Assembly: GCA_039714315.1 (NCBI GenBank)
Contig: JBDLJM010000005.1
Span: forward strand, 1-58,610
Source of the DNA: Bacteroidota bacterium
GTDB lineage: Bacteria > Bacteroidota > Bacteroidia > Flavobacteriales > JADGDT01
DNA length: 58,610 nucleotides
Direction: 5' to 3'
Shown here: piece after piece, positions 10,418-52,686 of the stretch
How positions within the stretch are numbered: the first letter of the stretch is position 1
Layout: every line of letters begins with the position of its first letter
Made by a program: the position numbers and the translations under genes
Notes under the pieces: generated by a model
Database searches by the model: none
The model's input: only the letters and a program-made list of their open reading frames with translations
Told to the model about the DNA's origin: nothing

Positions 10418-13400
10418 ATGAACAAAGTAAACTACTTTTTGATCGTTGTATTGTCCCTTTTTACAATGACAATAACTGCACAAGAGGAATGGAATCAGGT
10501 AGGTTCTTCTATTTTGGGAGCAGACTCGGGAGATGAATTAGGACATTCGGTGAGCTTAAGTTCCGATGGTTCTGTAATGGCTGTAGCGGCACCTAATAAC
10601 GGAGACAATAACGGGCAGGTAATAATTTACCAAAATACAATCGGTAGCTGGGAGCAAATAGGTTCGCCTATTTCCGGTGAAAGTGGTGACCGTTCCGGTT
10701 ATTCGGTAAGTTTAAATTCTGAAGGTTCAATAGTTGCAATCGGATCTCCCACGCATGGAGAAAACAGTCCGGGTTGCGTAAGAATTTACCAAAATATTGA
10801 TGGTGTCTGGACTCAGATAGGAGATAAAATAGACGGAAAGATTATAGATAATCAGTTTGGAAGGTCGGTAAGTTTAAGTTCTGACGGTTTAACCTTAGCA
10901 GCAGGAGCAGTAGAAAACGGCACAACAGAAGCCGGGCACGTTGGAGTTTACAAACTAATTGATGGATCCTGGCAGCAGATGGGATTAGATATAACAGGGG
11001 AATCCGGAGGCGACCAGTTTGGAAGCGCAGTAAGTATAAGTTCGGATGGTTCAGCAGTAGCTGTCGGAGCACCGTATAATACTATTGGAGGTACTTTAGT
11101 TGATGTGGGACATGTTAGAGTTTACATGTATAGCAATAACGAATGGATACAGACAGGGTTAGATATTGACGGAGAAACTGCGGGCGATAAATTTGGTAGT
11201 TCTGTAAGTTTAAGTAATGATGGTTCATTATTAGCAATAGGTGCTCCTGATCATGACGATAGTAATTTCGGACATGTAAAAATTTATCAGAATAACAATA
11301 ACGAATGGGAACAGGTAGGAGAAACTATCGAAGGAAAGTTATCGCATAATTATGCCGGTACTTCTGTAAGTTTAAGTTCAGACGGTTCTATGGTAGCAAT
11401 AGGCGGAGTAGAGGATAATGATCTCAATAGGTCTCCCGGTTATGTTATGGTTTATAGAAATAATGGAGGAGCCTGGCAACAGGCAGGTCCGGATATACAA
11501 GGAGCCACAGATGGAGACAAATTCGGTAAATCGGTAAGTTTGAGTTCTGATGGTAAAATAGTAGCAATAGGAATACCAGGTTTTGGACCTGATCAGGGTA
11601 GTACTGAAGTATATGAACTTAGTGGAGAAGTAGTTGAACCACCAACAATTGATGAAGAATGGGTACAGGTAGGTTCTTCTATTTTGGGAGCAGATTCGGG
11701 AGATGAGTTAGGACATTCAGTGAGCTTAAGTTCCGATGGTTCTGTAATGGCTGTAGCAGCACCTTATAACGGAGATAATAACGGACTAGTAATAATTTAT
11801 CAAAATATTGCCGGTAGCTGGGAGCAAATAGGTTTGTCTATTTCCGGTGAAAGCGGTGATCGTTCCGGTTATTCGGTAAGTTTAAATTCTGAAGGTTCAA
11901 TAGTTGCAATCGGATCTCCAACACATGGAGAAAACAGTCCGGGTTGCGTAAGAATTTACCAAAATATTGATGGTGTCTGGACTCAGATAGGAGATAAAAT
12001 AGACGGAAAGATTATAGGTAATCAGTTTGGAAGGTCGGTAAGTTTAAGTTCTGACGGTTTAACCTTAGCAGCAGGAGCAGTAGAAAACGGCACAACAGAA
12101 GCCGGGCACGTTGGAGTTTACAAACTAATTGATGGATCCTGGCAGCAGATGGGATTAGATATAACAGGGGAATCCGGAGGCGACCAGTTTGGAAGCGCAG
12201 TAAGTATAAGTTCGGATGGTTCAGCAGTAGCTGTCGGAGCACCGTATAATACTATTGGAGGTACTTTAGTTGATGTGGGACATGTTAGAGTTTACATGTA
12301 TAGCAATAACGAATGGATACAGACAGGGTTAGATATTGACGGAGAAACTGCGGGCGATAAATTTGGTAGTTCTGTAAGTTTAAGTAATGATGGTTCATTA
12401 TTAGCAATAGGTGCTCCTGATCATGACGATAGTAATTTCGGACATGTAAAAATTTATCAGAATAACAATAACGAATGGGAACAGGTAGGAGAAACTATCG
12501 AAGGAAAGTTATCGCATAATTATGCCGGTACTTCTGTAAGTTTAAGTTCAGACGGTTCTATGGTAGCAATAGGCGGAGTAGAGGATAATGATCTCAATAG
12601 GTCTCCCGGTTATGTTATGGTTTATAGAAATAATGGAGGAGCCTGGCAACAGGCAGGTCCGGATATACAAGGAGCCACAGATGGAGATAAATTCGGTAAA
12701 TCGGTAAGTTTGAGTTCTGATGGTAAAATAGTAGCAATAGGAATACCAGGTTTTGGACCTGATCAGGGTAGTGCTGAAGTATATGAACTTGTAGAGACTC
12801 CGATTGAACCACCTATGTTTGAGGATGATTGGGTGCAAATAGGATTAGATATGGTAGGAGAAGCTTCAGGAGATGAATTTGGACACTCGGTGAGTATGAG
12901 TTATAGCGGATCAATTGTGGCAATTGGAGCTCCTGATTATGAACAAAATAAAGGACAAGTAAGAATTTACAAAGACATCTCTAATAGTTGGAAACAACTG
13001 GGGTTGTCTATCATAGGTGAATCCTGGGATCATTCCGGTTCCTCAGTAAGCTTAAATTCGGATGGATCGATAGTAGCAATCGGATCTCCCACACATGGAG
13101 AAAACAGTCTGGGTTGCGTTAGAATTTACCAAAATATAGATGGTGCCTGGACCCAGATGGGGGATAAAATAGACGGGAAGGTTCTTTTTAACCAATTTGG
13201 AAGATCGGTAAGTTTAAGTTTTGATGGTTTAACAGTTGCAGTTGGAGCCGTAGAAAATGTTATAACAGAGGCCGGGCATGTAGGAGTTTACCAATTTATT
13301 GATGGTGCATGGCAACAGTTAGGATTAGATATAACAGGAGAAGAAGTAGGTGATCAGTTTGGAAGGACAGTAAGTTTAAGTTCCGATGGATCGACTGTGG

Positions 13401-14233
13401 CTGTTGGAGCTCCTTATAACACAATAGGGTGGGCTTTTGTTGATGTAGGTCATGTAAGAGTTTATAGGTTTAATAATAATGAATGGATACAGATAGGATC
13501 AGATATTGACGGAGAAGCTGCGGGCGACAAATTTGGAAGTTCTGTAAGTTTAAGTATTGATGCTTCAATTTTAGCCATTGGTGCTCCTGATTATGACGAT
13601 AGTAATTACGGACACGTAAAAGTTTATCAAAATAATAACAACGAGTGGGAACAGGTAGGAGAAACTATCGAAGGAAAGTTGTCGCATAATTACGCAGGCA
13701 CTTCGGTAAGTTTAAGTTCAGATGGTTCTACTGTAGCTATCGGCGGAGCTGAAGATAATGATTTAAACAGATCTCCGGGATATGTGATGGTTTATAAAAA
13801 TGTAGAAGGTACCTGGCATCAGATGGGTGTAAATATTTTAGGAGCTGAAAATGGAGATAAATTTGGAAAGTCGGTAAGTATAAATTCTGATGGAACAAAA
13901 GTTGCAGTAGGAGCTCCGGGATTTGGACCGGATCAGGGTTTGGCAGGAGTATATAATTACGGAGAACTTGATCCTCCACTAAGTAATTTTGATATTTCTT
14001 CAGAAAAAGTAATGGTATATCCAAATCCTACATCAGGTAATGTGATTATTAACAATATTAATAAAGAAAGATTATCTGTAAGATTATTTACTATCAATGG
14101 GGTGTTGGTTGTTGAATCAATGTCTGAAGAAGAGAAAGTCAGAATAGATCTCGGGAATTATCAGGCCGGTATGTATATTATGCATATTGAAAATGGTAAT
14201 GATAAGGAGATAATAAAAGTTATTAAATACTAG
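10418..14233 (+). CDS. Giant T9SS surface protein with three beta-propeller repeats
   Basis: A 1271-residue secreted protein. It has a signal peptide (residues 1-21, ending ITAQ) followed by three 390-residue repeats that start exactly 1170 bases apart (10490, 11660, 12830). Each repeat holds about seven FG-GAP-like units of the form FGxSVSLSSDGSxVAIGAP, so each probably folds as a seven-bladed integrin-alpha-like propeller. The tail (about residues 1195-1271) is a T9SS type A sorting domain with VMVYPNPTSG and a GMYIMHI strand. Repeats 1 and 2 are almost identical in DNA, including silent sites, while repeat 3 is diverged, which points to a recent internal duplication or gene conversion. The likely role is adhesion or surface binding. 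No catalytic motif was seen. Confidence 0.85.
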   Translation: MNKVNYFLIVVLSLFTMTITAQEEWNQVGSSILGADSGDELGHSVSLSSDGSVMAVAAPNNGDNNGQVIIYQNTIGSWEQIGSPISGESGDRSGYSVSLNSEGSIVAIGSPTHGENSPGCVRIYQNIDGVWTQIGDKIDGKIIDNQFGRSVSLSSDGLTLAAGAVENGTTEAGHVGVYKLIDGSWQQMGLDITGESGGDQFGSAVSISSDGSAVAVGAPYNTIGGTLVDVGHVRVYMYSNNEWIQTGLDIDGETAGDKFGSSVSLSNDGSLLAIGAPDHDDSNFGHVKIYQNNNNEWEQVGETIEGKLSHNYAGTSVSLSSDGSMVAIGGVEDNDLNRSPGYVMVYRNNGGAWQQAGPDIQGATDGDKFGKSVSLSSDGKIVAIGIPGFGPDQGSTEVYELSGEVVEPPTIDEEWVQVGSSILGADSGDELGHSVSLSSDGSVMAVAAPYNGDNNGLVIIYQNIAGSWEQIGLSISGESGDRSGYSVSLNSEGSIVAIGSPTHGENSPGCVRIYQNIDGVWTQIGDKIDGKIIGNQFGRSVSLSSDGLTLAAGAVENGTTEAGHVGVYKLIDGSWQQMGLDITGESGGDQFGSAVSISSDGSAVAVGAPYNTIGGTLVDVGHVRVYMYSNNEWIQTGLDIDGETAGDKFGSSVSLSNDGSLLAIGAPDHDDSNFGHVKIYQNNNNEWEQVGETIEGKLSHNYAGTSVSLSSDGSMVAIGGVEDNDLNRSPGYVMVYRNNGGAWQQAGPDIQGATDGDKFGKSVSLSSDGKIVAIGIPGFGPDQGSAEVYELVETPIEPPMFEDDWVQIGLDMVGEASGDEFGHSVSMSYSGSIVAIGAPDYEQNKGQVRIYKDISNSWKQLGLSIIGESWDHSGSSVSLNSDGSIVAIGSPTHGENSLGCVRIYQNIDGAWTQMGDKIDGKVLFNQFGRSVSLSFDGLTVAVGAVENVITEAGHVGVYQFIDGAWQQLGLDITGEEVGDQFGRTVSLSSDGSTVAVGAPYNTIGWAFVDVGHVRVYRFNNNEWIQIGSDIDGEAAGDKFGSSVSLSIDASILAIGAPDYDDSNYGHVKVYQNNNNEWEQVGETIEGKLSHNYAGTSVSLSSDGSTVAIGGAEDNDLNRSPGYVMVYKNVEGTWHQMGVNILGAENGDKFGKSVSINSDGTKVAVGAPGFGPDQGLAGVYNYGELDPPLSNFDISSEKVMVYPNPTSGNVIINNINKERLSVRLFTINGVLVVESMSEEEKVRIDLGNYQAGMYIMHIENGNDKEIIKVIKY
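10490..13999 (+). repeat. Three tandem 1170-base coding repeats
   Basis: Units begin at 10490, 11660 and 12830. The first two differ at only scattered positions; long tracts such as 10990-11520 and 12160-12690 look identical. The third matches mainly at the protein level. Confidence 0.9.
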
Positions 14234-14261
14234 AGATAATAAATTGTTCGGCTATTTAAAC

Positions 14262-14300
14262 CGCTCTTTCACCGGCTTTGTGAAAGAGCGTTTTTTTTTG
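14262..14300 (+). terminator. Strong terminator after the propeller gene
   Basis: Perfect 11-base stem CGCTCTTTCAC (14262-14272) / GTGAAAGAGCG (14280-14290), followed by nine T residues. Confidence 0.9.
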
Positions 14301-14304
14301 ATAA

Positions 14305-14692
14305 TTTAGACACTATCCCATAAAGTATTGAAGGGTCTTCCTTTCTTCGATGTTTATTTGGTATAATCATCCACTGGATGCCAAATTTATCAGTTAACAT
14401 TCCAAATAGGGATTCCCAAAACTGTTTTTCGAAGTGTATAATAACATTTCCGCCTTCAGATAAACTCGTAAAAAAGAATTATACTTTAAAACTAACAGCG
14501 CATTCCATAATTCAATTGGTATATTAGGGAAGAATGCATTATTTTACTTTTCGTTACGTCGTCTATCTCCATTGGACTTTCTTCAAAGGTCATTAACTCC
14601 AGTTTTACACCCAAAATGGAATTGTAATGTTCCATTGCTTCTTTACAGTTTCCGTTGAAGGTGAGATAAGGACTTATTTTACTTTGTTTCAT
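14305..14692 (-). pseudogene. Decayed PhnB/VOC-family gene
   Basis: The N-terminal half (14692 down to about 14520) reads MKQSKISPYLTFNGNCKEAM and continues with LGVKLELMTFEESPM, the start of a PhnB-like glyoxalase-fold protein. It then runs into a stop at 14492 through nonhomologous residues. A second frame (about 14480-14305) encodes the C-terminal part, SLSEGGNVIIHFEKQFW followed by FGMLTDKFGIQWMI. The intervening 30 or so residues expected in the family are missing and the frame changes, so the gene is broken. The original biochemical role is unknown. Confidence 0.75.
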
Positions 14693-14852
14693 TTTTTAGA
14701 TATTTAGTTGTTTTGATATAAAAACACTCAAATCACCTCATTTATAGTGTTTTAGTTAAGATTATAATCCATCAGGTAGAATTTTGTTTGCTGTGTTGGG
14801 ATATTGTTTGTACATTGATTATCAAATAACTAACCTTTAAATAAAAGTATTC

Positions 14853-16313
14853 ATGTCAAAAGTTTTAATTCTCGGTGCAGGAATATCCGGGCACACTGCT
14901 GCACTTGTAGCCAGACGCAAACTCTCAAAAGATCATGAAGTAACGGTAGTAAGTCCAAATTCTAATTATCAGTGGGTTCCGTCAAATATATGGGTAGGAG
15001 TAGGGCTGATGAAAGCAAAACAGGTAACTTTTCCACTGGCTCCGGTATATGAGAAGAAGAATATTAACTATATTCAGGCTAAGGCTGTTTCAATTCACCC
15101 TGAGGGTAGTAAAGGATCTGCAAAAGCTTTTGTTAAGGCAGAGTATGTAGTAGGAGATAATAAGGGGATAGTAGAAAATATAGAGTACGATTACCTTATA
15201 AATGCTACCGGACCCAAATTAAATTTTAATGCAACCGAGGGTTTGGGGCCTGATAAGTTCTCACAATCAGTTTGTACTTACGGACATGCCGAACATGCAT
15301 GGAAGAATCTGGATGCAGCCATGAAAAAGTTGGAAAATGGCGAGAAACAAACCTTCCTGATCGGAACCGGACATGCTATGGCCACATGTCAGGGCGCAGC
15401 ATTTGAGTATGCTTTGAACATTGCTTTTGAGATAAATAAGCGAAAACTAGACCATTTAGCGGAGATAATATGGATATCGAACGAGTATGAGCTCGGCGAT
15501 TTTGGAATGGGAGGAGCTTATGTGAAACGTGGAGGGTATATTACTCAAACAAAAATATTCACAGAGTCTATTCTTAAAGAGTATGGGATAAAATGGATAA
15601 AAAGGGCAGGAGTTTTTAAACTGGAAGAAGGGAAAGCACATTACGAACTTTTGGATGGTACTTATAACGTACAGGAGTTTGATTTTGCCATGCTGATACC
15701 CGGATTTGCAGGAGCAGGAATAAAAGCTTTTAATCATAAGGATGAAGATATAACATTAGATGTTTTTGCCGCCAATGGTTTCATGAAGGTAGATGCTGAT
15801 TATACTCCCAAACCGTATGAGGAGTGGAAAGCGTCTGACTGGCCGAGTATATATCAAAGTGTAGGATACAAAAACATGTATGCTGCAGGAATAGCATTTG
15901 CTCCACCGCACACAATGTCGAAACCTATGGAGAGTCCGAACGGAACAAAAATATTCCCTACACCTCCGAGAACGGGGATGCCATCGGGGGTAATAGGAAA
16001 GATTATTGCCGAAAATGTGGCACACCAGATGAAAACGGGGAAAACAGATGAGCATCCGCATAAGGCATCGATGGCAAAGATGGGGGCAGCCTGTATAGTT
16101 TCGGCCGGATATGGTTTGAGAAACGGTGCTGCAGCTACTATGACCGTATTTCCTATTGTTCAGGATTGGGAGAAATATCCAAAATGGGGTAGAGATATAA
16201 CCTATACTGTTGGTGAAGCAGGATTGGCAGGCCACTGGATTAAGCTTATATTACATTACATGTTTATTTATAAGGCAAAAGCGCTGCCGTTTTGGTGGTT
16301 GATTCCTGAGTAG
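14853..16313 (+). CDS. Sulfide:quinone oxidoreductase-like FAD flavoprotein
   Basis: A 486-residue pyridine-nucleotide-disulfide-type flavoprotein. The N-terminal FAD-binding GxGxxG appears as ILGAGISGHTAAL (residues 6-18), and further motifs of the sulfide:quinone oxidoreductase group follow. These include NATGPKLNF, a GTGHAMATCQGAAFEY segment with a conserved Cys, FGMGGAYVKRGGY, and the late LIPGFAGAG/YAAGIAFAPPHTM quinone- and FAD-contact region. Cysteines in SVCTYGHAEHAW, ATCQGA and GAACIVSAG are candidates for the sulfide-reactive pair. The C-terminal HWIKLILHYMFIYKAKALPF is amphipathic/hydrophobic and could bind the membrane. The expected reaction is sulfide (or a related thiol) to polysulfide with electrons to quinone. 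The subtype cannot be decided without an alignment. Confidence 0.78.
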   Translation: MSKVLILGAGISGHTAALVARRKLSKDHEVTVVSPNSNYQWVPSNIWVGVGLMKAKQVTFPLAPVYEKKNINYIQAKAVSIHPEGSKGSAKAFVKAEYVVGDNKGIVENIEYDYLINATGPKLNFNATEGLGPDKFSQSVCTYGHAEHAWKNLDAAMKKLENGEKQTFLIGTGHAMATCQGAAFEYALNIAFEINKRKLDHLAEIIWISNEYELGDFGMGGAYVKRGGYITQTKIFTESILKEYGIKWIKRAGVFKLEEGKAHYELLDGTYNVQEFDFAMLIPGFAGAGIKAFNHKDEDITLDVFAANGFMKVDADYTPKPYEEWKASDWPSIYQSVGYKNMYAAGIAFAPPHTMSKPMESPNGTKIFPTPPRTGMPSGVIGKIIAENVAHQMKTGKTDEHPHKASMAKMGAACIVSAGYGLRNGAAATMTVFPIVQDWEKYPKWGRDITYTVGEAGLAGHWIKLILHYMFIYKAKALPFWWLIPE

Positions 16314-16371
16314 ATAAGTCCAAAGTCCAAAGTCTAAGGGCCAAAGTTTAATAATTAAATAAATCAGAGAT

Positions 16372-16542
16372 ATGAATCCATATAATGAAGATAAGAGAAC
16401 AGAACCTTACACATACACATCGTATTCAACAATACCTACGAGAACTACACGTTTTTTCAGGAAGTGTATTTGCTGGCAGATATGGAGGTTTTTTGTTTTG
16501 AATTTGAAGATAATGAGGATAATTGTTGGGGGGCATTCTTAA
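16372..16542 (+). CDS. Small 56-residue protein downstream of the SQR-like gene
   Basis: This ORF starts at ATG 16372, 58 bases after the SQR-like stop, and ends with TAA at 16542, just before a terminator. It is basic and polar at the N-terminus (MNPYNEDKRTEPYTYTSYS), then has a TRTTRFFRKCICW segment with a CxC pair, then a hydrophobic stretch (IWRFFVLNLKIMRIIVGGHS) long enough to sit in or on a membrane. The clean frame, the position before a terminator and the non-random sequence argue that it is a real cotranscribed gene. A role as membrane anchor or partner of the flavoprotein is inference. Confidence 0.65.
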   Translation: MNPYNEDKRTEPYTYTSYSTIPTRTTRFFRKCICWQIWRFFVLNLKIMRIIVGGHS

Positions 16543-22893: not shown

Positions 22894-23454
22894 CTATTTA
22901 CCCTTTATTTCTACTCTAACTCTATACATATAATCATGGTCGTGATTATCCATTTTCTTTCTTGGGAAATAGATATAAAAATCTCCATCCACTACATGAC
23001 AATCATTAGTTGGCCCATCGAAATCTACAAAACTTGAATATGGCTGCATTTCGGTTGGTCCGGTTGCCACATCTATCACTGCTTCTTTTGTCCACTCTAA
23101 ACCATCTTCTGATGTATAAAGCAATAGTTTATTGAACTCGTGTGTTTGTACAGTCAGCAAATATTTTCCAAGAGCAGTACTATAGGCAGCATCTGCGTGA
23201 AGATTTTCTCTTCCTAATTCTACTTCGAATATTGGATCGCCCGGAATACCTGATAACCCCGGAGTTTTCCAGTTTCCATCTTTGTACTTAAACCATTCGC
23301 TTACTTTTCCTTTTTTAGCTTCTTTCAACACCTTTTTTAGTTTTGAACGAATAACAACAGGACGACGTGGCTCAGGAGTTTCTTTTTCAGAATCGTTGTA
23401 GTATAACATCATATAATCATCTTTAATTATATATGCACCACCTCCAACATTTGT
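22894..23454 (-). pseudogene. 5'-truncated glycosidase-like beta-propeller gene
   Basis: The frame from about 23454 to 22894 encodes the C-terminal 180 or so residues of a secreted beta-propeller-type hydrolase. It begins abruptly inside YITNVGGGAYIIKDDYMMLY, directly after an in-frame TAG, with no signal peptide. It ends with FDGPTNDCHVVDGDFYIYFP and RVRVEIKGK. Strand motifs such as YTSEDGLEW and SGIPGDPIFEVELG suit GH43/GH62- or DUF4185-like five-bladed propellers, but I cannot assign a family. An internal ATG at 23412 gives 172 residues, but the missing blades make an active enzyme unlikely. It abuts another truncated gene at 23457. Confidence 0.6.
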
Positions 23455-25508: not shown

Positions 25509-26789
25509 TTAAAGTCCTATCTCCTGATCAGTCTGCTCAATTTTCTTATTTCCTTCCAAATTCTCTGTTCTTTTCTCAACTTCCGCCAATACAGGTAAAT
25601 TACTTTCAGGCTTGTCTAAATAGAAGTATGCAGTAGCCGAATAATCGTCTCTTCTATAGAAGTTTGCCCATCCTGCTCTAAGGTCTTTATCTGTTATATC
25701 CGCTAGTTTTAATTCGGGGTTATCCAACATACTAGCAAACTTGTTTGCCGCTTCCAGATCTTTTTGAACAGATACAATTTTTAATTCAGCACCTTTATCA
25801 ATAAACGACTGAACTCTATCGGGAGGAAAACCGCCTAAAGCCTGAATAGTAGCTTTAAAATCGCTATAGAAATAAATAGGATCTTTGATGTGGTAGCGGT
25901 AAAACGACCATCTTCCTTCTTCCGGTTCGCCTATTAAACAACCTTGATAACGGTGATTGTATCTTCCTTGACCCCAAGCAGTGCCTATGTAATCTTCGGT
26001 TCCCGAACCTACCATTGTTGGGGTTTCTCCATCGCCATCCAAATACATTTTAACTTCACCTTCGCCCCACCACGAGTCTTCGTAATCGGGATTTGTAATA
26101 ACGCCAATGTGACTTCCTATAAAACGACCTGTACCTTCTACTTTTGGTAAAATCTCAAAATCTTTCCCTATTTCTGTTCTGTGAACTCTGTTCCAGTGCG
26201 TGTGGAAGTAAAGTATTTTATCAAAAGGTTTTGGCGAAATTGTATAATCGATATCATAAAATATCATTCTCTGCTCTTTCTTTGTTTCGTTTGTTACAAC
26301 AATCTTTGCCGATTTATTAAAAGGCATTGGTATTGATGCGTTGAACGAACGTGCCTCCGGGTCTGAGAAAAATACTTCCTCGTGTGCAACCTGTTTACCC
26401 AAATCTATTCCAAAGAAATCACCAAATGGTGCCGATACAGCAGGTTTCTCCGCCCCATCCCAATACATGTCGATTCTCATTCCGCGCAACATTTCGGGGC
26501 TGCGATCCATAATTGTAAACCACATACGGTGAATAGTTCCGGGACCTTTTACATCGAACATCACCTTCGATTCTCCTGCTTCTATCCTGTCGAAAGCATG
26601 TCCTTTTCCTCCCTTGTTTTCGAGTCCGCCCTTACCCTTTTCGCCATATTGGTTTTCGAAACTTACCCAGCGCGATTGTGTTCCGTCGGGATATGAGAAT
26701 AGCTCTCCTTTAACCTCGTTACTTTCCTGTTTACATGCCGATATTGCAACTATGGCAAGTGCTCCTATGATTAGTTTTTTTAGGTTCAT
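25509..26789 (-). CDS. GH172 (DUF2961) lipoprotein, single-module
   Basis: A 426-residue lipoprotein; the lipobox is AISACKQ with C19. The body is the two-jelly-roll DUF2961 fold now classified as GH172. The family includes alpha-D-fructofuranosidase/difructose-anhydride enzymes and exo-alpha-D-arabinofuranosidases. The catalytic-glutamate regions are visible: WWGEGEVKMYLDGDGE (E243/E245) and GSGTEDYIGT (E265). Further family blocks are GPGTIHRMWFTI, FGDFFGID and IPMPFNKSAKIVVTN. It follows the large GH172 gene by 52 bases on the same strand. It should act on furanosides of D-arabinose or D-fructose; the exact substrate cannot be read from sequence. Confidence 0.85.
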   Translation of the reverse strand: MNLKKLIIGALAIVAISACKQESNEVKGELFSYPDGTQSRWVSFENQYGEKGKGGLENKGGKGHAFDRIEAGESKVMFDVKGPGTIHRMWFTIMDRSPEMLRGMRIDMYWDGAEKPAVSAPFGDFFGIDLGKQVAHEEVFFSDPEARSFNASIPMPFNKSAKIVVTNETKKEQRMIFYDIDYTISPKPFDKILYFHTHWNRVHRTEIGKDFEILPKVEGTGRFIGSHIGVITNPDYEDSWWGEGEVKMYLDGDGETPTMVGSGTEDYIGTAWGQGRYNHRYQGCLIGEPEEGRWSFYRYHIKDPIYFYSDFKATIQALGGFPPDRVQSFIDKGAELKIVSVQKDLEAANKFASMLDNPELKLADITDKDLRAGWANFYRRDDYSATAYFYLDKPESNLPVLAEVEKRTENLEGNKKIEQTDQEIGL

Positions 26790-26841: not shown

Positions 26842-29800
26842 CTATTCTTTAATTATTTTCTTCGTAAAATATCCAGTTTCAGTATTCACTTTTATTAAGT
26901 AAACTCCATTGTTTAATCCCGAGATATTAATGTACTCAGACGAATTAGATATAAACACCTCTCTTCCTCCAAGATCGAATATTTGAATGTTATTTACTTT
27001 ACCTTCTAAACCTTTAACCGAAATGTAATCGTTTGCCGGATTTGGATATACCGAAATCTTTGAAGTTAATTTAACATGATCATTGTCTAACATTGTACCT
27101 TTTTCTACTGAATAAATCCAATAGCGAAATTCTGACCAGTTGAATTCACTGTCTGACGCTACAAACTTCAATGTAATTTCTGCTTTTCCTTCGGTGAATG
27201 ATGCAGGGATGTAGAAGAATTCTTCTCTCCAACGTTTAAATTCGTTCATGTAAACCGAGTACCATGTTCCAACTTTTACATTATCAACATAAACATCAGC
27301 CTGTTGATCCTGCATTCCGTAATCGAACATACGTTTTATTTTTACAGCTTTACCGGGAGTTACCGCAACTGTAAATTGAGTACTTCCCTTTATGTAGTTC
27401 CCCGATTCAACTACTGCCACATCATCATCATCTCCTTCAAAATAATAGCTTTTGTTTAATTGTTCTTGTTTTTCGCCGGTTACTGTATAATTGTGATTGC
27501 TTTCTGAAGTAGCATCTCCAATATTTATTTCGTCAGTCAATTCATTTTTGGCTGTAGCATTATGATAATAATATGCCAAAGTATGATAATCGGCAAACTG
27601 GTCGTTATGTGGTCCGTGTTCCATTCCGAATTTAGCCCCGTTAGTAAAGTGGATAGGATCGGTTATATGGAAGCGATATAAGCTTCTGTCATAATCCTTA
27701 AAAGCATTAAATCCGTGCTGGGCAAGATTGAAAGGTCCGTGACCAAAATACCATGCTCCATTGAAATAATCTTCAAGACCTGTACCTTGTAACTGTGGCG
27801 TGCGACTTCCATCGATATAAAATCTCTCATCACCCTCAAGCCAAAATGCATTTGGAGCATCTCTAACTTCAAATACTACACCAACATATTTTCCCGAACC
27901 ATTTTCGTCTAAAATCATATGGTCTTTTCCCGCAACAGGAGGATTTGCATTGTTGTATTGTGTTTTTAAATATCCGCAGTTTGCAAAATCTTCGTTAAAA
28001 TCGGCGTAGTTCACACTTACATTTACACCATTCAATGCTTTACCGTAATTATTTACAAGTTTTACCTCATACGAGTTTTCAAATGGCATTGGCAGGTAGC
28101 AGTACATGGTTCTTTCTCCTTCAATTATACCTACCGGTAGCGATTGAAAAGCAACTTTCTCGAAAGTCCCTGTTCCGAAGAATAAACCAAGCGGTGCATC
28201 AATAGCCGGAGTAGATTCTCCGTTGTAGAATATCTGAATATTTACTTTTTCCAGTATTTCAACAGTTCCGTCTTCGACCGGTGGAGGTGTTTGTCCCGGA
28301 TATTCAAAGGAAACAGTACCCGACCAACCACCCGTAGCACTATAACTATGTGCTGTTTCACTTGCTGTATTAGCCACATCCAACTCATCGCTAAGCTCTC
28401 CATCGCTGTACATCCAGTAACGGAATTCGTTCCAATCTACATCGGCACTTATGTAATCTATTTTTATAGTTAACTGTGATTTAGCACCAACTAAATCGGA
28501 AGAAATATAGAACTCAGAATCTTTCCACGAATCACCAACTTCGGCTCTTCCTTCATCAAACCAGACACCTGCCGAAACACCATCAACAAAAACTTCTGCT
28601 TTTTGATTTCCTATTCCGAAGTTTAGCCTTCTTACTAATTTGTATTCAGCAGCATTAGGTGTTACTGTTAATGTAAATTGACTATTATCTGTGTGTGCTC
28701 TTCCATCGTCGGTAATCAAAAATCCATATCCATAAGTATATGTCCTTTCTCCCGACCATCCACCTGAAGTTGTGTAGTTGTGAGCTGTTTCGCTTGTTGC
28801 ATTATTTACATCCAACTCGTCGGTTTGTTCTCCATCGCATATTGTCCAATATCGGAATTCATTCCAGTCAAATTCAGCTGATACATATTTTACTTCAATG
28901 GTGATTTTGGTTTTTGTTCCAACTAAAGATCTTGGAATTTCAAAATCAATATCACGCCAACGGTCGATACTATCATAACCTTCCGATTTCATTGTTCCGG
29001 CTTTAACACCATCGATGTAGATATCTGCAATCTGATGGTTGCCACTACCATAATCGAATCGTCTTCTAAGAATAATTTTTGCCGCATTTGGGTCGACATC
29101 CATCTCAAACTGACTGAAATCGGTATGTGCTCTACCTGCATCAGTAATTGCTCCTGAAAAATCCAAATCAGGAATTTCAACAAATAAACCGGTAATATTT
29201 TTATTGCTTTCATTTATTGCAATAGCTGTTTTGCTTTCTCCAATAGCTAAATCAATAATATTGTTTTGTGTTTCATACGTTTGATCCGAACGAGGGTCTG
29301 ATCCTTTATTTGCCAGAATATTATTTTCCTCAGTTAAACCGTCATATCCGTTCCAACTTGTAATATCGGCATCTGCAGGATACATTTCGTACTGTACATT
29401 GTTGAAATAGTTGGTAGCATCAGGAGCATAATCATCGGCATTGGTTGTGATAATTATCTCGTTTTCGAAAGGAAAAGGGATGTATGATATCGATCCCATG
29501 CTCGATTCCCAGTAACCTGCTATAAGGTTAGGATAATAATCAGCAGACCTGTTACTTTTATCAAAAAAGTCAACTACTCTTTCATCAATACGAGGAAGCT
29601 CTTCTCCATCGAAATAAATTTTTATTCTTTGAGTCCAATCACAACATACACCTGATGTTCCATCAAAACCTGTAAGCCATATACGCTTCACAATACCTTT
29701 TCCTTTTACACGAAGCATAATGTTTTCTCCATTATAATGCCCGTAAAAATTATTTTGTGCAGGTTCTCCGTTTTCGGCTTTAAAGCCATCTTTATTACCT

Positions 29801-29955
29801 CCTTCGGGGTCGTGACTGGAATTTTGCATAGTTATTACAGCTGTATTTAAAACAGGTAATTTATCTATGTCTGTCAGTTGTTCAAGTCCAATATTTTGAC
29901 CATTTATTCCTATAGAAATAAATAAAACAACGAGTAATGAAATTATATTTTTCAT
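26842..29955 (-). CDS. Large multidomain GH172 protein with T9SS sorting domain
   Basis: A 1037-residue secreted protein. The order is: signal peptide (1-19); a complete first DUF2961 jelly roll (about 80-195, ending IPFPFENEIIITTN then FNNVQYEMYP); two related beta-sandwich modules (about 253-375 and 405-515); a second, repeated jelly-roll segment plus the catalytic half of DUF2961 (about 565-800); a third beta-sandwich (about 855-945); and a T9SS sorting domain (about 965-1037). The GH172 glutamates are E707 (FWLEGDERFYIDG) and E728 (GTGLEDYF), 21 residues apart as I recall for the family's fructofuranosidase prototype. The beta-sandwich copies share DWNEFRYW/NWSEFRYW endings and are probably carbohydrate-binding. 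It is exported to the cell surface by T9SS. Confidence 0.82.
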   Translation of the reverse strand: MKNIISLLVVLFISIGINGQNIGLEQLTDIDKLPVLNTAVITMQNSSHDPEGGNKDGFKAENGEPAQNNFYGHYNGENIMLRVKGKGIVKRIWLTGFDGTSGVCCDWTQRIKIYFDGEELPRIDERVVDFFDKSNRSADYYPNLIAGYWESSMGSISYIPFPFENEIIITTNADDYAPDATNYFNNVQYEMYPADADITSWNGYDGLTEENNILANKGSDPRSDQTYETQNNIIDLAIGESKTAIAINESNKNITGLFVEIPDLDFSGAITDAGRAHTDFSQFEMDVDPNAAKIILRRRFDYGSGNHQIADIYIDGVKAGTMKSEGYDSIDRWRDIDFEIPRSLVGTKTKITIEVKYVSAEFDWNEFRYWTICDGEQTDELDVNNATSETAHNYTTSGGWSGERTYTYGYGFLITDDGRAHTDNSQFTLTVTPNAAEYKLVRRLNFGIGNQKAEVFVDGVSAGVWFDEGRAEVGDSWKDSEFYISSDLVGAKSQLTIKIDYISADVDWNEFRYWMYSDGELSDELDVANTASETAHSYSATGGWSGTVSFEYPGQTPPPVEDGTVEILEKVNIQIFYNGESTPAIDAPLGLFFGTGTFEKVAFQSLPVGIIEGERTMYCYLPMPFENSYEVKLVNNYGKALNGVNVSVNYADFNEDFANCGYLKTQYNNANPPVAGKDHMILDENGSGKYVGVVFEVRDAPNAFWLEGDERFYIDGSRTPQLQGTGLEDYFNGAWYFGHGPFNLAQHGFNAFKDYDRSLYRFHITDPIHFTNGAKFGMEHGPHNDQFADYHTLAYYYHNATAKNELTDEINIGDATSESNHNYTVTGEKQEQLNKSYYFEGDDDDVAVVESGNYIKGSTQFTVAVTPGKAVKIKRMFDYGMQDQQADVYVDNVKVGTWYSVYMNEFKRWREEFFYIPASFTEGKAEITLKFVASDSEFNWSEFRYWIYSVEKGTMLDNDHVKLTSKISVYPNPANDYISVKGLEGKVNNIQIFDLGGREVFISNSSEYINISGLNNGVYLIKVNTETGYFTKKIIKE

Positions 29956-37930: not shown

Positions 37931-39613
37931 TTATTGGTTAGCCAACCATTCGGCAAAAGGGTCATCATAACCTTGAATTGGAATTGCTATAAACTGCTGC
38001 CCTTCTAACAACCCGGCTTCTTCATCTATAGCTATCAATGATTTTCCATCACCAACGGCATTATTTTCAATTGTAAGAACCTTGTTAGGGAATTTCTTAT
38101 TGGTGATTTTATAATAATCATCGCTGATAGATTCTACAGTCCAAAGCTGATTATCTGTACCCAAATTATCCCAAAGATGAACATTTCTGTCATCTCCCGA
38201 AAGATCTACAACTTTATCGTAACCATATTTCTCGGCATGAACAGACTTAAGTAAAAAGTAGCCATCTCCATTATCTATAAGTTTCCACATTTTTGTAGTT
38301 GCTCCGGGAGCAAAAGACCAGGTATGTATATTAACGTTTTTTCCTACTTCAACATCCCATGGCAGGTCTATATCAACAACGTAATCATTAGTACTTTTAG
38401 GAAATAGATAGAATGGATATCCCAACGTAGCATCGTTTTCGGGTTGATTACCTATTTTGTAATTAACTCCTGAAGTTGCTAGGTAAATTAGTCCTTTTGA
38501 GCTTACAAAAACAGTATTCCACAGTTTTGCTTCGCCACCCCACATACGGTAAGCTGATGTCCAGGTAGATCCATTATCGTCGCTCATCACATAACCAAAT
38601 TGTGTGCTTTCAAAGGTTCCAAATTGGAATGTCACTATAAGTTTGCCATCAGGTAATACCGCAATATACGGTGCACCGGCTCCATAAGTTGAGCTTCCTG
38701 TTGGGTAATCGTAAACAGTTTTAATTTCACTCCAAGTTGCTCCATTATCATCAGAAGTAACCATTCCTATAGAGAAAGCATTATTGTATTTTTTACTTTG
38801 AGTTTCGAACACTACGATAAGTTGTCCTGAATTTGTACGAACTACACCATTCATTCCGGCAGAACCCAAAGCACCAAATTGTTCGATACCTGTTACTACT
38901 TCTTCTTCACCCCATGTAGCTCCATAATCTGTTGAGCGTTTCATTGTTAACAAAAGCGGATGCAAATCACGTCCATCGTTCTGACGAGAATAAAGACACC
39001 AAAGTTCTTCAAGTTCATCATTATAATACAAGAAAGGCTCCCAAGCTCCTTCACTTTGATCTGACTCTAAACCTTCATCTCCATTATATGGATTTCTTGG
39101 ATCATTAAGTGCACTACTTAAAAATTCGTAACTCAATCCTCCGTCTTTACTAACAACTAAATCAATATTCCACCATTTAACTCCATCCGGTTCCTGGTCA
39201 TATTTATCGATATCATTTAAATGACGGTATGCTACTACTATATCTTTGTTAGGTAAAACCAAAGGAAATACGTTTCCTTTTCCTTCGTTCTTTACTCCAC
39301 TGTTTGGTGCAGCAATTACTTCGCTTCCGAATGTTATTCCGTTATCATGACTTTCAAAAAGCTTTACTCCTTCACCTGTATCCATACCAAGTATCATACG
39401 AGGATTACTTGTAATAGTATCTTCTGCAAAACGTGGATATCCACCACCACCATGATGAAAATCTCCACTCCACATTATATTATTTACTGCATCAGGCTGT
39501 GGTACTACCGGTGTAGGTTTTGAGGGTGGAGTGAATTCGTACTCCTTATTACATGAACCAAGTATTGCTATAGTACTTAGCAAGGCTATACTTAATATAT
39601 TTTTTATTTTCAT
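37931..39613 (-). CDS. GH93-like sialidase-fold lipoprotein with RICIN domain
   Basis: About 560 residues from ATG 39613 (another ATG at 39634 adds seven residues). It is a lipoprotein (ILGSCNK). Residues about 50-370 form a six-bladed BNR/Asp-box propeller, with Asp-box-like turns ESHDNGITF, SKDGGLSY, STDYGATW and SDDNGSTW. Sequence blocks resemble exo-1,5-alpha-arabinanases of GH93: GNVFPLVLPNKDIVVAYRHL, AWEPFLYYN and STYGAGAPYIAVLPDGKLIV. Candidate catalytic glutamates are E192 (AWEPFL) and E270 (VVFETQS). The last 160 residues are a RICIN-type lectin domain (QLWTVESISDDYYKI). It is last in the susC-led operon. It most probably cleaves arabino-oligosaccharides at the cell surface. Confidence 0.68.
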   Translation of the reverse strand: MKIKNILSIALLSTIAILGSCNKEYEFTPPSKPTPVVPQPDAVNNIMWSGDFHHGGGGYPRFAEDTITSNPRMILGMDTGEGVKLFESHDNGITFGSEVIAAPNSGVKNEGKGNVFPLVLPNKDIVVAYRHLNDIDKYDQEPDGVKWWNIDLVVSKDGGLSYEFLSSALNDPRNPYNGDEGLESDQSEGAWEPFLYYNDELEELWCLYSRQNDGRDLHPLLLTMKRSTDYGATWGEEEVVTGIEQFGALGSAGMNGVVRTNSGQLIVVFETQSKKYNNAFSIGMVTSDDNGATWSEIKTVYDYPTGSSTYGAGAPYIAVLPDGKLIVTFQFGTFESTQFGYVMSDDNGSTWTSAYRMWGGEAKLWNTVFVSSKGLIYLATSGVNYKIGNQPENDATLGYPFYLFPKSTNDYVVDIDLPWDVEVGKNVNIHTWSFAPGATTKMWKLIDNGDGYFLLKSVHAEKYGYDKVVDLSGDDRNVHLWDNLGTDNQLWTVESISDDYYKITNKKFPNKVLTIENNAVGDGKSLIAIDEEAGLLEGQQFIAIPIQGYDDPFAEWLANQ

Positions 39614-39755
39614 TTTTGTCTTTATTTTCGTCATCCAAACTGAAGCTTTAGCGAAGAGAATAATTCGTTATTAGCAGTGCTAAATCTTTTTAATAAAAAG
39701 ACATTCTATTCCGCTAAAGCTACACTCAATATGACAAGTTAATTAAAACTCAATT

Positions 39756-41363
39756 TTACCAATCATTATCTTCATTTTCCTTTAAAAAATGCTCAAATGG
39801 TTTATAGTCAGGGTTTAATGATCTAGCCTGCCATAACTGTGCATCACTGCCAACATAGGGCATTGGTCTCAGTTCTGTATTAGGATTATCTCCATCTGCA
39901 TTTGCAAAAGGTTCACCACCATCTTTTCCAACAGCAGTAAGAACTAAGCCATTGGCTCTACAAACTATTCTATAGTATCCATCTTCAACTTCCACTACTG
40001 TCCATAGTTGTTCGCCTTTGCTCAGATCAATTTGTTGCTGCTTTACAACTTCTCCTTCATTAATAGACTCTACAGCAGTACCGGTACCTCCATTTCCGTT
40101 TATACCTGAAACAGATTGAAACCAAAAGTATCCGTCTTTATTATTATATAAAGACCATGTTTTTTGTACTGCTCCCTGCATATTATCATGTCCCCAGAAA
40201 TGAACAGGGTTTCCTGAACCTGTTGGCCAAGGGAAATTAGCATCAACACAGTAATCATCGTTTCCTTTTACGAATAGATAAAATGGTGATTTTATAATTG
40301 CATTAGGATCCATTGGAGCAAGATCAATACTAGTTCCGGATATAGCAACAAATAAATATGCATTATCGGTTACGTAAGCTGTAGTTCCATTTGCAACCTT
40401 ACCTTTGAACAGGTTAGTTGCAGTACTCCATGATTTTCCGTTATTATTACTTATTACATATCCGAAATCTCCACCACCATCTCCGGCCTGGAACGTTGCA
40501 ATAAGTCTTCCGTCTTTAGTTTTAGTAACAAAAGAATCTCCTGCACCGTAAACGTCAGGATTAACTCCGGGATATGAGTACGCTGTAGTTGGTTTAGACC
40601 ATGTTATTCCATCTATACTTTTACTGCAAAGAACAGATCTAGCCGTACCAAATACTAAATCTTTACCTTCAAAAACAGCAACAAATTCGTTATTTCTATC
40701 CATCACAAACGATGGTGAGTTTATAAAACCATCAGCCTCTAACACTTCCTCGTTCATCACTTTTACAGGTTCAGACCAAGATTCTCCATCATCGATAGAT
40801 TTTATTAGCATAAGATGGGTAAGCGGAATATCAGTTCCGGCTTTTTGCGAATAATAACAGTAAATACCATTATCAGTATTTAATAAAAATGGAGATGAAA
40901 TTGGTAGCTCATCAACAGCTACAACAATATCACTTTTAATTTCCCATTCTTCCCCGTACATAGTTCCTTTCAACAATCCGAATGACTTATCATTTTTATT
41001 ATAAACAATTAACGACTGACCTTCATTTTGTGCCAACATATGAGGTTCTTTTGGGTTTGTTGTAATTGAACTAATGGCTAAAACATCCATTTCAAAATCC
41101 CACTTTGAACCATATTGGGTTGATTTTGCAACATGAATACCTAAGTCATTTTTAGTTACTGCATATAACAAAGTTGTATCTGACGCCTGAGAAAAACGAG
41201 GACGTATACCTTGAGGTCCAGCGAAAGTCCCTGCCCATTGAATATCAGGGCCTTGCTCCAGTTTTGGAGGCTCCACATAATCAGCCACCGGGTCTTTTGC
41301 ACATGAAGCTAACATCAGTACTGATGCAGCGAATAGTGCTGATTTAATATTTTTTAGTATCAT
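39756..41363 (-). CDS. GH93-like sialidase-fold lipoprotein lacking one candidate catalytic Glu
   Basis: A 535-residue lipoprotein (MLASCAKDP, C21) related to its downstream neighbour: an Asp-box propeller (STQYGSKW, SIDDGESW, SNNNGKSW) followed by a RICIN-type region (from about residue 350; QLWTVVEVEDGYYRI, AQLWQARSL). Where the two paralogs read AWEPFL/VWEPFL, this protein reads ISSPFLL, so the first candidate glutamate is a serine (S157). The second is kept (E232, VFEGKD). It may therefore be a binding protein or have altered specificity. It lies 18 bases after the GH-A gene. No enzymatic claim is made. Confidence 0.6.
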   Translation of the reverse strand: MILKNIKSALFAASVLMLASCAKDPVADYVEPPKLEQGPDIQWAGTFAGPQGIRPRFSQASDTTLLYAVTKNDLGIHVAKSTQYGSKWDFEMDVLAISSITTNPKEPHMLAQNEGQSLIVYNKNDKSFGLLKGTMYGEEWEIKSDIVVAVDELPISSPFLLNTDNGIYCYYSQKAGTDIPLTHLMLIKSIDDGESWSEPVKVMNEEVLEADGFINSPSFVMDRNNEFVAVFEGKDLVFGTARSVLCSKSIDGITWSKPTTAYSYPGVNPDVYGAGDSFVTKTKDGRLIATFQAGDGGGDFGYVISNNNGKSWSTATNLFKGKVANGTTAYVTDNAYLFVAISGTSIDLAPMDPNAIIKSPFYLFVKGNDDYCVDANFPWPTGSGNPVHFWGHDNMQGAVQKTWSLYNNKDGYFWFQSVSGINGNGGTGTAVESINEGEVVKQQQIDLSKGEQLWTVVEVEDGYYRIVCRANGLVLTAVGKDGGEPFANADGDNPNTELRPMPYVGSDAQLWQARSLNPDYKPFEHFLKENEDNDW

Positions 41364-50700: not shown

Positions 50701-52686
50701 ATGAAAACAAAAATTTTTACTTTTTTAAGTGGGTTACTATTTATTACATCCGGATTGTTTGCCCAGGATTGGGTTTATCTACAATCAGGAAGTTCAGCCG
50801 GTTCAAATGTTGTTTTTGGACCGTGGTCGGGAGACGATGGAATATTTGGTACTGCCGATGATGATATTCATATTTGGGATGGTGATAATCCTGAGCGTGA
50901 AGTAATCATTACGGCAACAGGCGGTGCTGATGGTGTGAAAAAATATTTTACAATATCGGTGGCAGCAATGTGGACAGGTACTGCACAAAATTTCGCAATA
51001 GCTGTTAATGAAGATGCCACACCAACTACACAACCGGTTGAGGCATCTGCATATACAGGAACAGCTACTGATGCACAGCTATGGTATGTAAAACAAGAAA
51101 ACGGACACTATGTAATTTACAGTAAGTTAAACGATAAAGTATTTGCTGCCGGAGCAGGAAATGGTACTGATATTGAATTGCTTGATTATGATAAAGCAGA
51201 CGTAAAACAACACTGGACTTACTTTAAAGTTTCAACTGAAGGATTTGACCCATTTGCTGACCTTGCCGAAGTAATTACCTGTACTTTTGATGGAGGGCTT
51301 ATTAATAGTAGAATGGCAAGTGTTAATTGGGCAATTAATGTTTTTCCTACGGAATTAAAAAACTCAGTAACACCATGTAATGCAACAGGTACTATTAATT
51401 ATACATGGGAATATTCAAACGATGGTACTACTTATACAGTATTACCTTTAGCCGAAGAAGCAAATTATGAAGAATCTTATACTTTTATATCTAATTTAAC
51501 AGAGTTGGGTGCAACAATTGGTTCTTCAATATTCTTTAAAAGAATTGCAACTGACGATAATGGATCATTTGATTCAAATATTATAGAGTTACCGGTTGTG
51601 GAGGCAGTTGATTGGGTGAAGTTAACACCTAAATCGGCTGTTACCGTTCACGAAGGAGATGGTGTTCAGGCTTTGGATGTTAATGATGTTGATAAAACTC
51701 CAGCGAACTTTGACGAAGTACACCTTTGGGCACACAGATTTGGTAATGAAGGTCAACAAATGATGATTTTACCCGTTGAGGAAGCAGGTTATTTCGCAAT
51801 ACAGGCGATGAATCAATACGGAAGTAATTTTATATTTGATGGTTGGGATCCTGAGGTGAAAATTTGGGATGGCGGAGGAGCTCCGAATGATGAGAAAAAA
51901 TGGTATGTTACACGAGAAGGAGATGATAAACAATACGTAATTCACGTAAAGAGTACTTGGCAAAATGGCGATAGATGTATTACAGCTGACAGTGATGTTT
52001 TAGGAGCAGGTGTTAATTCACCAGCGTATGAGGCAGACAAAGCAGAGCAACAATGGAGTTACTTAGAATTATCTAAAGATAATTACGATCCTTTGGCAGC
52101 TTATATAGTTGGTGATTTAGACGAAGGAATTATTGCAGCAGTTGGTGATGTAATAACTGCAGCTCCCGAAGATAATATTCCAGTGTTTAACTCTAAACTA
52201 AATGCAGGTGGAGGAGATAATACTATCACTTATACATGGGAGTACTCTACAGATGGCGGGACAACTTACACCCCTGTTGATGGTATAGAAACTAATTTCA
52301 TGGATATGTCTGCTTTTACCTATTCTCAAATAGGACTTGTAGAAGGAGAAGGAGGTACTTTGGATGTACGTAGAATTGCTACAGATGGAACAGAGACTTC
52401 GGTAACTGCTCAGGCTGTACAAATAACAGTTGATGATGGTCTTTCGATTAATGATATTGATGCATCTTCAATAAAAATCTATCCAAACCCTGCTACATCT
52501 TCTGTTTCTGTTTCGGCAGAAAAATTCGATACTGTTGAGGTTTTAAATGCTCTGGGACAGTCAGTTCTTAAGCTTGAAGGAGGAAAAGATATTAAAGTAA
52601 ATACGGCTGGTTTTAAAGCAGGTATTTACATTGTAAAATTCTCTAATAATAATGGTTCTGTTGCAAAACGACTTGTAATAAAGTAA
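50701..52686 (+). CDS. T9SS surface protein with two RICIN-like/Ig-like repeats, no catalytic domain
   Basis: A 661-residue secreted protein (signal peptide 1-21, GLFAQDW). Two repeated halves each combine a RICIN-type lectin-like segment (ATDAQLWYVKQENGHYVIYS at about 123-142; KKWYVTREGDDKQYVIHVKS in the second) with an Ig-like module (TINYTWEYSNDGTTYTVLP; TITYTWEYSTDGGTTYTPVD). The tail, from about residue 580, is a T9SS sorting domain (IKIYPNPATSSVSVS, GIYIVKFSNNNG). No glycosidase active site is visible. The Ig-like module recurs near the C-terminus of the next gene product. It probably presents or holds glycan at the surface for the neighbouring enzymes. It has its own terminator and a candidate operator upstream. 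Confidence 0.75.
   Translation: MKTKIFTFLSGLLFITSGLFAQDWVYLQSGSSAGSNVVFGPWSGDDGIFGTADDDIHIWDGDNPEREVIITATGGADGVKKYFTISVAAMWTGTAQNFAIAVNEDATPTTQPVEASAYTGTATDAQLWYVKQENGHYVIYSKLNDKVFAAGAGNGTDIELLDYDKADVKQHWTYFKVSTEGFDPFADLAEVITCTFDGGLINSRMASVNWAINVFPTELKNSVTPCNATGTINYTWEYSNDGTTYTVLPLAEEANYEESYTFISNLTELGATIGSSIFFKRIATDDNGSFDSNIIELPVVEAVDWVKLTPKSAVTVHEGDGVQALDVNDVDKTPANFDEVHLWAHRFGNEGQQMMILPVEEAGYFAIQAMNQYGSNFIFDGWDPEVKIWDGGGAPNDEKKWYVTREGDDKQYVIHVKSTWQNGDRCITADSDVLGAGVNSPAYEADKAEQQWSYLELSKDNYDPLAAYIVGDLDEGIIAAVGDVITAAPEDNIPVFNSKLNAGGGDNTITYTWEYSTDGGTTYTPVDGIETNFMDMSAFTYSQIGLVEGEGGTLDVRRIATDGTETSVTAQAVQITVDDGLSINDIDASSIKIYPNPATSSVSVSAEKFDTVEVLNALGQSVLKLEGGKDIKVNTAGFKAGIYIVKFSNNNGSVAKRLVIK

Follow-up and report, generated by a model that had tools for sequence, protein, structure and literature searches.

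Enzymes of glycoside hydrolase (GH) family 172, the DUF2961 proteins, form a cellular family for which kinship with the double jelly-roll capsid proteins has been proposed and whose active site needs two subunits; their own double jelly roll and trimer are reported to resemble viral capsomers (PMC8812541). In the published account of aFFase1, the active site lies between two protomers, one of which supplies Trp267, Glu270, Glu291, Asp292, and Trp298 and the other Tyr187' (PMC8605356). The same account assigns Glu85' and Lys147' to the +1 subsite, has Trp267 lining both subsites, and gives the activity on p-nitrophenyl arabinofuranoside (pNP-Araf) as 90% retained in Y187F and 0.7% in Y187A. The GH172 activities assayed so far, according to these reports, are on α-D-arabinofuranosides (α-D-Araf) and α-D-fructofuranosides (α-D-Fruf) (PMC8605356, PMC10115798, PMC10509167), and fusions of DUF2961 to carbohydrate-binding modules (CBMs) and other domains are on record (PMC8812541). 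According to its published description, DgGH172b carries "1.5 DUF2961 domains" and forms a dimer, seen by size-exclusion chromatography with light scattering, that provides three DUF2961 domains (PMC10115798). The present analysis concerns a GH172/DUF2961 protein of 1037 amino acids (116.9 kDa), encoded by the open reading frame (ORF) at 26842-29955 on the minus strand of contig JBDLJM010000005.1 from a Bacteroidota bacterium. The whole contig of 58,610 bases was analysed and is referred to as the window.

The protein contains three jelly rolls: an extra one of the first type (JR1a), followed by a double jelly roll of the ordinary kind (JR1b and the catalytic JR2). As the likeliest reading, we consider it somewhat probable that it is an exported, active GH172-type retaining exo-α-furanosidase, two JR1a-JR1b-JR2 chains of which close a six-jelly-roll ring, with JR1a completing the active site of the partner. 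A broader account, offered tentatively and with less confidence, is of an old GH172 subfamily in which JR1a kept the active-site-completing face and JR1b the JR2-packing face; the two-chain ring would then hold two live sites, and the dead groove would have become an outlet for permuted sugar-binding modules.

Domain Architecture

The Pfam model PF11175 (DUF2961) matches the protein in two stretches with 239.4 bits (cut-off 27). An AlphaFold2 model built on a 22-row alignment (A2) has a mean predicted local distance difference test score (pLDDT) of 82.3 and a predicted template modelling score (pTM) of 0.71. Within the limits of prediction and sequence, the chain order is secure: JR1a, JR1b with modules 1 and 2 nested in it, JR2, module 3, and a tail for the type IX secretion system (T9SS). 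The features are listed below with the evidence for each; HMM denotes a hidden Markov model and VIA the structural comparison.

29899..29955, minus strand: probable signal peptide, residues 1-19 (hydrophobic N-terminus by eye; pLDDT below 50 at 1-19)
29356..29883, minus strand: JR1a, extra complete first-type jelly roll, residues ~25-200 (JR1 HMM 44-191; model strands)
29404..29406, minus strand: F184 in JR1a, equivalent of aFFase1 Tyr187' (Y/F conservation)
29161..29331, minus strand: first part of JR1b with the N-terminal strands, residues 209-265 (VIA start at 209; module-less relatives)
28720..29160, minus strand: module 1, residues 266-412, nested in JR1b, core followed by strand-helix-strand (HMM; folded alone)
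28282..28719, minus strand: module 2, residues 413-558, nested in JR1b, core followed by strand-helix-strand (HMM)
27991..28272, minus strand: second part of JR1b, residues ~562-655 (JR1 HMM 566-652; inside the VIA range)
27553..27978, minus strand: JR2, catalytic second jelly roll, residues ~660-801 (Pfam DUF2961 568-797; VIA Z 30-31)
27835..27837, minus strand: E707, equivalent of the aFFase1 acid/base Glu270 (sequence mapping; role from PMC8605356)
27772..27774, minus strand: E728, equivalent of the aFFase1 nucleophile Glu291, with D729 as Asp292 (sequence mapping)
27106..27546, minus strand: module 3, residues 804-950, after JR2, strand-helix-strand followed by core (HMM; VIA, CBM35-like fold)
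26851..27051, minus strand: T9SS type A C-terminal sorting domain, residues 969-1035 (PF18962, TIGR04183)
25509..26789, minus strand: plain GH172 paralog next door, 426 aa (single PF11175 stretch)

In the predicted model and the alignments, residues 209-265 and ~562-801 together are a single ordinary GH172 double jelly roll that holds sandwiches 1 and 2 in one loop. Four GH172 crystal entries, among the best 50 entries given by VIA, match the model with Z of 30.3-31.5 and a root-mean-square deviation (rmsd) of 2.1-2.4 over 274-278 aligned residues, the alignments running from 221 to 800 (8ic8), from 209 to 800 (8ah3 and 4kq7), and from 209 to 801 (7v1v). Since all of these entries align from residue 209 or 221, the ordinary double jelly roll begins at about 209, and the model places N-terminal strands of JR1b at 228-236, 241-247, and 252-260.

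A JR1 HMM derived from 31 plain GH172s matches the protein at residues 44-191 (E 6.7e-15) and again at 566-652 (E 5.9e-17, from HMM position 60 onward), which upholds the duplication of the first jelly roll claimed in the first-pass annotation. The annotation also had the second jelly roll restart at about 570, with two sandwiches as a spacer between the jelly rolls. This is refuted by the model, the structural alignment, and the relatives, which place the N-terminal strands of the second jelly roll at 209-265 and make both sandwiches an insertion within it. The restart is apparent because sequence matches to the four solved GH172s begin late, the best of them all at residue 570 or 573. Five relatives without the insert (L023, L027, L030, L041, and L052) have two JR1 HMM matches in tandem, the second one uninterrupted, and in long proteins with modules the second match picks up at HMM position 56-65. 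As JR1b is continuous in the module-less relatives, sandwiches 1 and 2 are placed as an insertion in a JR1b loop, between strands 252-260 and 571-577. An ordinary DUF2961 fold with a long insertion, the arrangement that the annotation had set against a duplication, is indeed found, but a further complete jelly roll precedes it.

Export by T9SS, also proposed at first pass, is supported by the type A sorting domain (PF18962, E 1.4e-14, 54.6 bits, cut-off 27; TIGR04183, 53.8 bits, cut-off 23). The adjoining paralog, annotated as having the plain fold, shows in Pfam one DUF2961 stretch, at 101-390 of its 426 residues (E 8.2e-67).

Probable Division of Labor between the JR1 Copies

Residues 44-191 score 51.2 bits with the JR1 HMM and 1.7 bits with the JR2 HMM, and copy A of the window protein matches spliced copy B with an E-value of 7.6e-8 and 33% identity over 55 residues. 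The alternative that JR1a is a copy of JR2 was rejected in 29 of 30 long (three-jelly-roll) proteins, where the JR2 HMM gives at most 5.9 bits against 12-72 bits for JR1; the JR1 score of the thirtieth, L059, is too weak (4.6 bits) to class it as JR1 or JR2.

Among the JR1 positions that are at least 80% conserved in plain GH172s, HMM positions 51, 53, 70, 85, 123, and 138 are kept in JR1a only, and 30, 35, 52, 82, 126, and 128 in JR1b only, those below position 60 resting on 8-9 JR1b rows. Along the strand at positions 51-53, JR1a-only and JR1b-only positions take turns, as expected for the opposite faces of a β strand; the window protein itself breaks the rule at position 123 (I168). A strict test over 25 JR1a/JR1b pairs and 52 conserved positions retained four JR1a-only and three JR1b-only positions, and 2000 within-protein label shuffles produced at most five one-copy-only positions in total, none reaching seven. 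Because the loss is reciprocal, the copies would seem to have two faces with two jobs, and a split of one ancestral JR1 role between JR1a and JR1b is well supported by sequence conservation.

Active Site and Proposed Assembly

The residue that aFFase1 lends across the interface follows the same split. Tyrosine or phenylalanine occupies the Tyr187 position in all 31 plain proteins and in 22 of 22 JR1a rows of A2 (25 of 25 by HMM, with five of the 30 searched giving no reading). In JR1b it is found in 1 of 20 rows, or 3 of 20 with any aromatic residue if Trp is counted. An HMM reading independent of A2 gives Y/F in 2 of 18 JR1b copies (Y in L016 and F in L021), of which the L021 residue stands at the edge of the HMM match and is read as L in A2; one stray third match in L012, with a score below 0, was left out of this reading. 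Such a pattern bears on the suggestion that JR1a is a decoration, a binding or spacer domain on an enzyme that trimerizes as usual by way of JR1b-JR2. These two jelly rolls do make up a complete GH172 double jelly roll by themselves, in line with that suggestion, but the interface-lent residue has been lost from JR1b and kept in JR1a, and Y187A kills aFFase1 (PMC8605356); we regard a mere decoration as quite improbable.

The catalytic residues E707, E728, and D729 are present in all 20 rows that include JR2, across at least eight phyla, and W735 is kept in 18 of the 20 long proteins. With both catalytic glutamates and the aspartate in place, the pure binding platform entertained in the first-pass annotation is not favoured. 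A non-catalytic, lectin-like surface protein on a dead GH172 scaffold would accord with the CBM35-like modules and with the poorly kept Trp267, but it is hard to reconcile with three invariant catalytic residues, and we give it very little credence.

We also note a near-invariant [YW]LEGDER in JR2 of the long subfamily, at window residues 704-711. R711 is found in 20 of 20 long proteins, and K, M, or L takes its place in plain proteins. Together with the mostly absent Trp267, the signature hints at another substrate than that of the plain GH172s.

A ring of six jelly rolls can arise from three chains that carry two each, as in ordinary GH172s, or from two chains that carry three each. In the proposed assembly, two three-jelly-roll chains would associate head to tail into the pseudo-sixfold ring known from ordinary GH172s. 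Each JR2 would have the partner's JR1a against it, with F184 of that JR1a lent to its active site, and JR1b would retain no more than the contact with JR2 of its own chain. The closed ring would carry two active sites instead of three, and a third type of groove, JR1a against JR1b, would be without active-site residues. The module-bearing loop of JR1b corresponds to the aFFase1 stretch ~64-98, which includes Glu85; the loop that carries the +1-subsite Glu85' in aFFase1 would now carry sugar-binding-like modules at the non-catalytic groove. The order JR1a-JR1b-JR2 in a two-chain ring predicts that the lent aromatic residue stays in JR1a and is under no such constraint in JR1b, which is the pattern observed. 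On the cell surface, where T9SS would place it, the enzyme may trim furanosyl side chains of a pentose-rich polymer. The earlier idea that the duplicated jelly roll bears on oligomerization is in part borne out by the published dimer of the 1.5-DUF2961 protein (PMC10115798) and by the lent aromatic residue being kept only in JR1a. If so, the three-jelly-roll subfamily indicates that jelly-roll number and ring symmetry can change while the shared active site stays.

The JR1a residue may instead serve its own chain: the jelly rolls may curl so that JR1a covers JR2 of the same chain, in a monomer or some other assembly, and the same residue conservation would follow. Three jelly rolls are, however, half of the usual six-membered ring, and the 1.5-DUF2961 DgGH172b is reported to be a dimer in solution (PMC10115798); completion within one chain thus appears unlikely, if less so than a decorative JR1a.

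Several points weigh against the two-chain ring of active enzymes. We infer the ring, by analogy with DgGH172b and from conservation, and with it the partner chain, where JR1a stands with respect to JR2, and where the modules lie. DgGH172b is compared here by its published description, so that its jelly-roll order is not part of the comparison. Relatedness is not taken into account in the label shuffle, and two copies that diverged long ago would show part of the conservation pattern in any case. The Trp267 position holds W in 3 of 20 long proteins versus 29 of 31 plain ones, and because this residue is mostly not kept, activity on α-D-Araf or α-D-Fruf is not to be assumed. The xylose/arabinose locus described below also differs from the settings of the assayed GH172s.

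β-Sandwich Modules

Three β-sandwich modules had been annotated, the third of them after the catalytic half. The three are homologous, at residues 269-410, 413-555, and 805-950; the first two are nested in JR1b and the third is appended after JR2. HMM matches divide each into a core and a strand-helix-strand unit (EHE): core 269-373 and EHE 376-410 in module 1, core 413-517 and EHE 520-555 in module 2, and EHE 805-828 and core 847-950 in module 3. Module 1 folded alone gives a pLDDT of 92.5 and a pTM of 0.88. Module 3 matches CBM35 4qb2 in VIA with Z 13.5 and rmsd 2.2 (121 residues aligned, target 129) and the C-terminal domain of GH146 with Z 13.9. The predicted fold is a CBM35-like β-sandwich, and carbohydrate binding is putative.

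The order of the two units depends on where the module sits. All 25 nested modules, from 21 proteins, have the order core-EHE. Of the 22 appended modules, 17 have EHE-core, and in the other five (L019, L020, L021, L025, and L030) no EHE was detected. CBM35 4qb1 matches module 3 (model 807-950) over residues 14-141 with Z 13.4 and module 1 (model 5-111) over residues 33-141 only with Z 8.2; a match from residue 14 in one case and from 33 in the other is as permutation predicts. By domain order and aligned ranges, nested modules 1 and 2 are circularly permuted relative to module 3. The entries 4yu6 and 4mgq cover module 1 over almost its whole length (Z 9.5 and 8.6), and the permuted topology may therefore have precedents. 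Literature searches on permuted CBMs listed no account of a nested/appended arrangement. The window protein is a natural example of a domain present within one chain in two forms related by circular permutation, one nested and one appended.

The modules were checked for known families, as the first-pass annotation had proposed, and no named Pfam family matches at the curated cut-off, either in the whole protein or in the 22 module sequences of alignment A3; a known common family is rejected on this basis. The best Pfam match, DUF6805 to module 1 (E 0.021), lies below the cut-off, and no CBM family appears among the Pfam matches of the 22 sequences at E ≤1 or of the whole protein. NCBIfam gives no match on the window protein outside the T9SS tail, and PDB sequences give only a galectin (E 0.034). 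The idea that they are widespread CBMs is not supported in Bacteroidota: of 296 genomes sampled from the phylum, one has the modules, namely that of the window, where they are present only in the two long GH172s.

Relatives and Phylogenetic Position

A profile search of genome contigs with alignment A1 yielded 20 loci with long-type relatives, spanning Bacteroidota, Fidelibacterota (Neomarinimicrobiota), Planctomycetota, Ignavibacteriota, Verrucomicrobiota, Actinomycetota, Bacillota, and Myxococcota. Three belong to Isoptericola cucumis, Nakamurella lactea, and Nocardia takedensis, and the other 17 are metagenome-assembled genomes, one of them unclassified. In a JR1b-JR2 tree of 27 long and 31 plain proteins, which leaves out the truncated long proteins L028 and L029, all long proteins fall on one side of one branch (support 98/91). 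L039, L046, and L059, classed as long despite a weak first jelly roll (E 1.7e-4, 2.9e-5, and 0.037), branch nearest to the plain GH172s. Window-type queries supplied the plain set, in which no sequence of a crystal structure is included.

The long type is rare in an even sample of the phylum, with two candidates scored per genome: 30 of 395 genomes match A2 at E ≤1e-40, most of them with plain GH172s. The window's own genome has a second long GH172 and three plain ones. The second long protein, on contig C75 (L076:4793-7417), has 874 aa and one nested module instead of two; a hybrid two-component sensor and a BNR_2 protein are encoded nearby. A scan of viral contigs gave one relative, L030 (IMGVR_UViG_3300010379_000051), on an IMG/VR contig classed as viral: a three-jelly-roll GH172 of 717 aa, open at the 5' end, with no nested modules and one appended module.

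A 255-residue piece of DgGH172c matched in 2 of the 395 sampled genomes, at 68% and 65% identity only, so the genome of Dysgonomonas gadei lies outside this sample. A module-less three-jelly-roll GH172 of 644 aa and 73.5 kDa (L079:4378-6312) was taken as a stand-in for DgGH172b. The other genes of its Bacteroidia locus (L079:1943-18380) include a plain GH172 similar to DgGH172c, GH92, GH26, and a GH43/GH32-like gene; DUF4185 was not found among the seven L079 proteins scanned.

Gene Neighborhood

The window locus comprises a GH3 with PA14, SusC, SusD, two BNR/ricin proteins, a GntR regulator, XylB, XylA, two XylE-type transporters, GH43, GH120, an AraC regulator, and ribulokinase. From the gene content here and at the sister locus described next, we infer an arabinoxylan-like polymer as the target. 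A locus of a sister genome (L010) contains a hybrid two-component sensor, a long GH172, a GH62-like protein, and a plain GH172, and its next two ORFs (11434-14601 and 14614-16434) appear SusC- and SusD-like by size and position. The LEGDER signature of a mostly Trp267-less GH172 is met in a xylose/arabinose locus and is a candidate for a different substrate.

Other genes of the window are mentioned in passing. A 172-aa ORF at 22894-23412 (minus strand) matches GH43 weakly and in part (profile 12-94 of 288), with a score below the cut-off; lying beside a complete transporter gene, it is possibly a gene remnant. Two T9SS-tailed ricin-type lectin proteins, one with BNR repeats, adjoin the locus at 50701-52686 and 52775-55423 (plus strand), and two more BNR/ricin proteins are found at 37931-41363.

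Comparison with Known Systems

The window protein shares with aFFase1 (7v1v) the double jelly roll (Z 30.3, model 209-801) and the conserved catalytic Glu270, Glu291, and Asp292. In contrast to it, aFFase1 has one JR1, a D3 hexamer, no modules, and Trp267 present. ExoMA1 (8ic8), DgGH172c (8ah3), and BACUNI_00161 (4kq7) likewise share the catalytic double jelly roll (Z 31.3-31.5) and differ in their single JR1, their trimer-based dodecamer or hexamers, and their lack of inserted modules. CBM35, CBM6, CBM36, and the GH146 C-terminal domain have the same β-sandwich fold as module 3; compared with CBM35, the modules show no named-family sequence match, and modules 1 and 2 are in permuted order. 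The main texts of the GH172 literature considered (PMC8812541, PMC8605356, PMC10115798, PMC10509167, PMC11748540), as far as they are covered here, mention neither modules inserted into a jelly roll nor a split of JR1 function. Of the double jelly-roll major capsid proteins, PRD1 P3 matches the window model with Z 12.3-12.4 and an rmsd of about 4 Å; the window protein differs from them in its three jelly rolls and is not a capsid protein.

The nearest described system is DgGH172b of Dysgonomonas gadei (HMPREF9455_02471), which is reported to have, like the window protein with its JR1a, JR1b, and JR2, 1.5 DUF2961 domains per chain. Its reported mass of 73.3 kDa per chain (half of 146,512; PMC10115798) is close to the 73.5 kDa of the L079 protein, and at ~73 kDa it is too small for the three modules and T9SS tail of the window protein (116.9 kDa). 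A 1.5-DUF2961 dimer is already in print.

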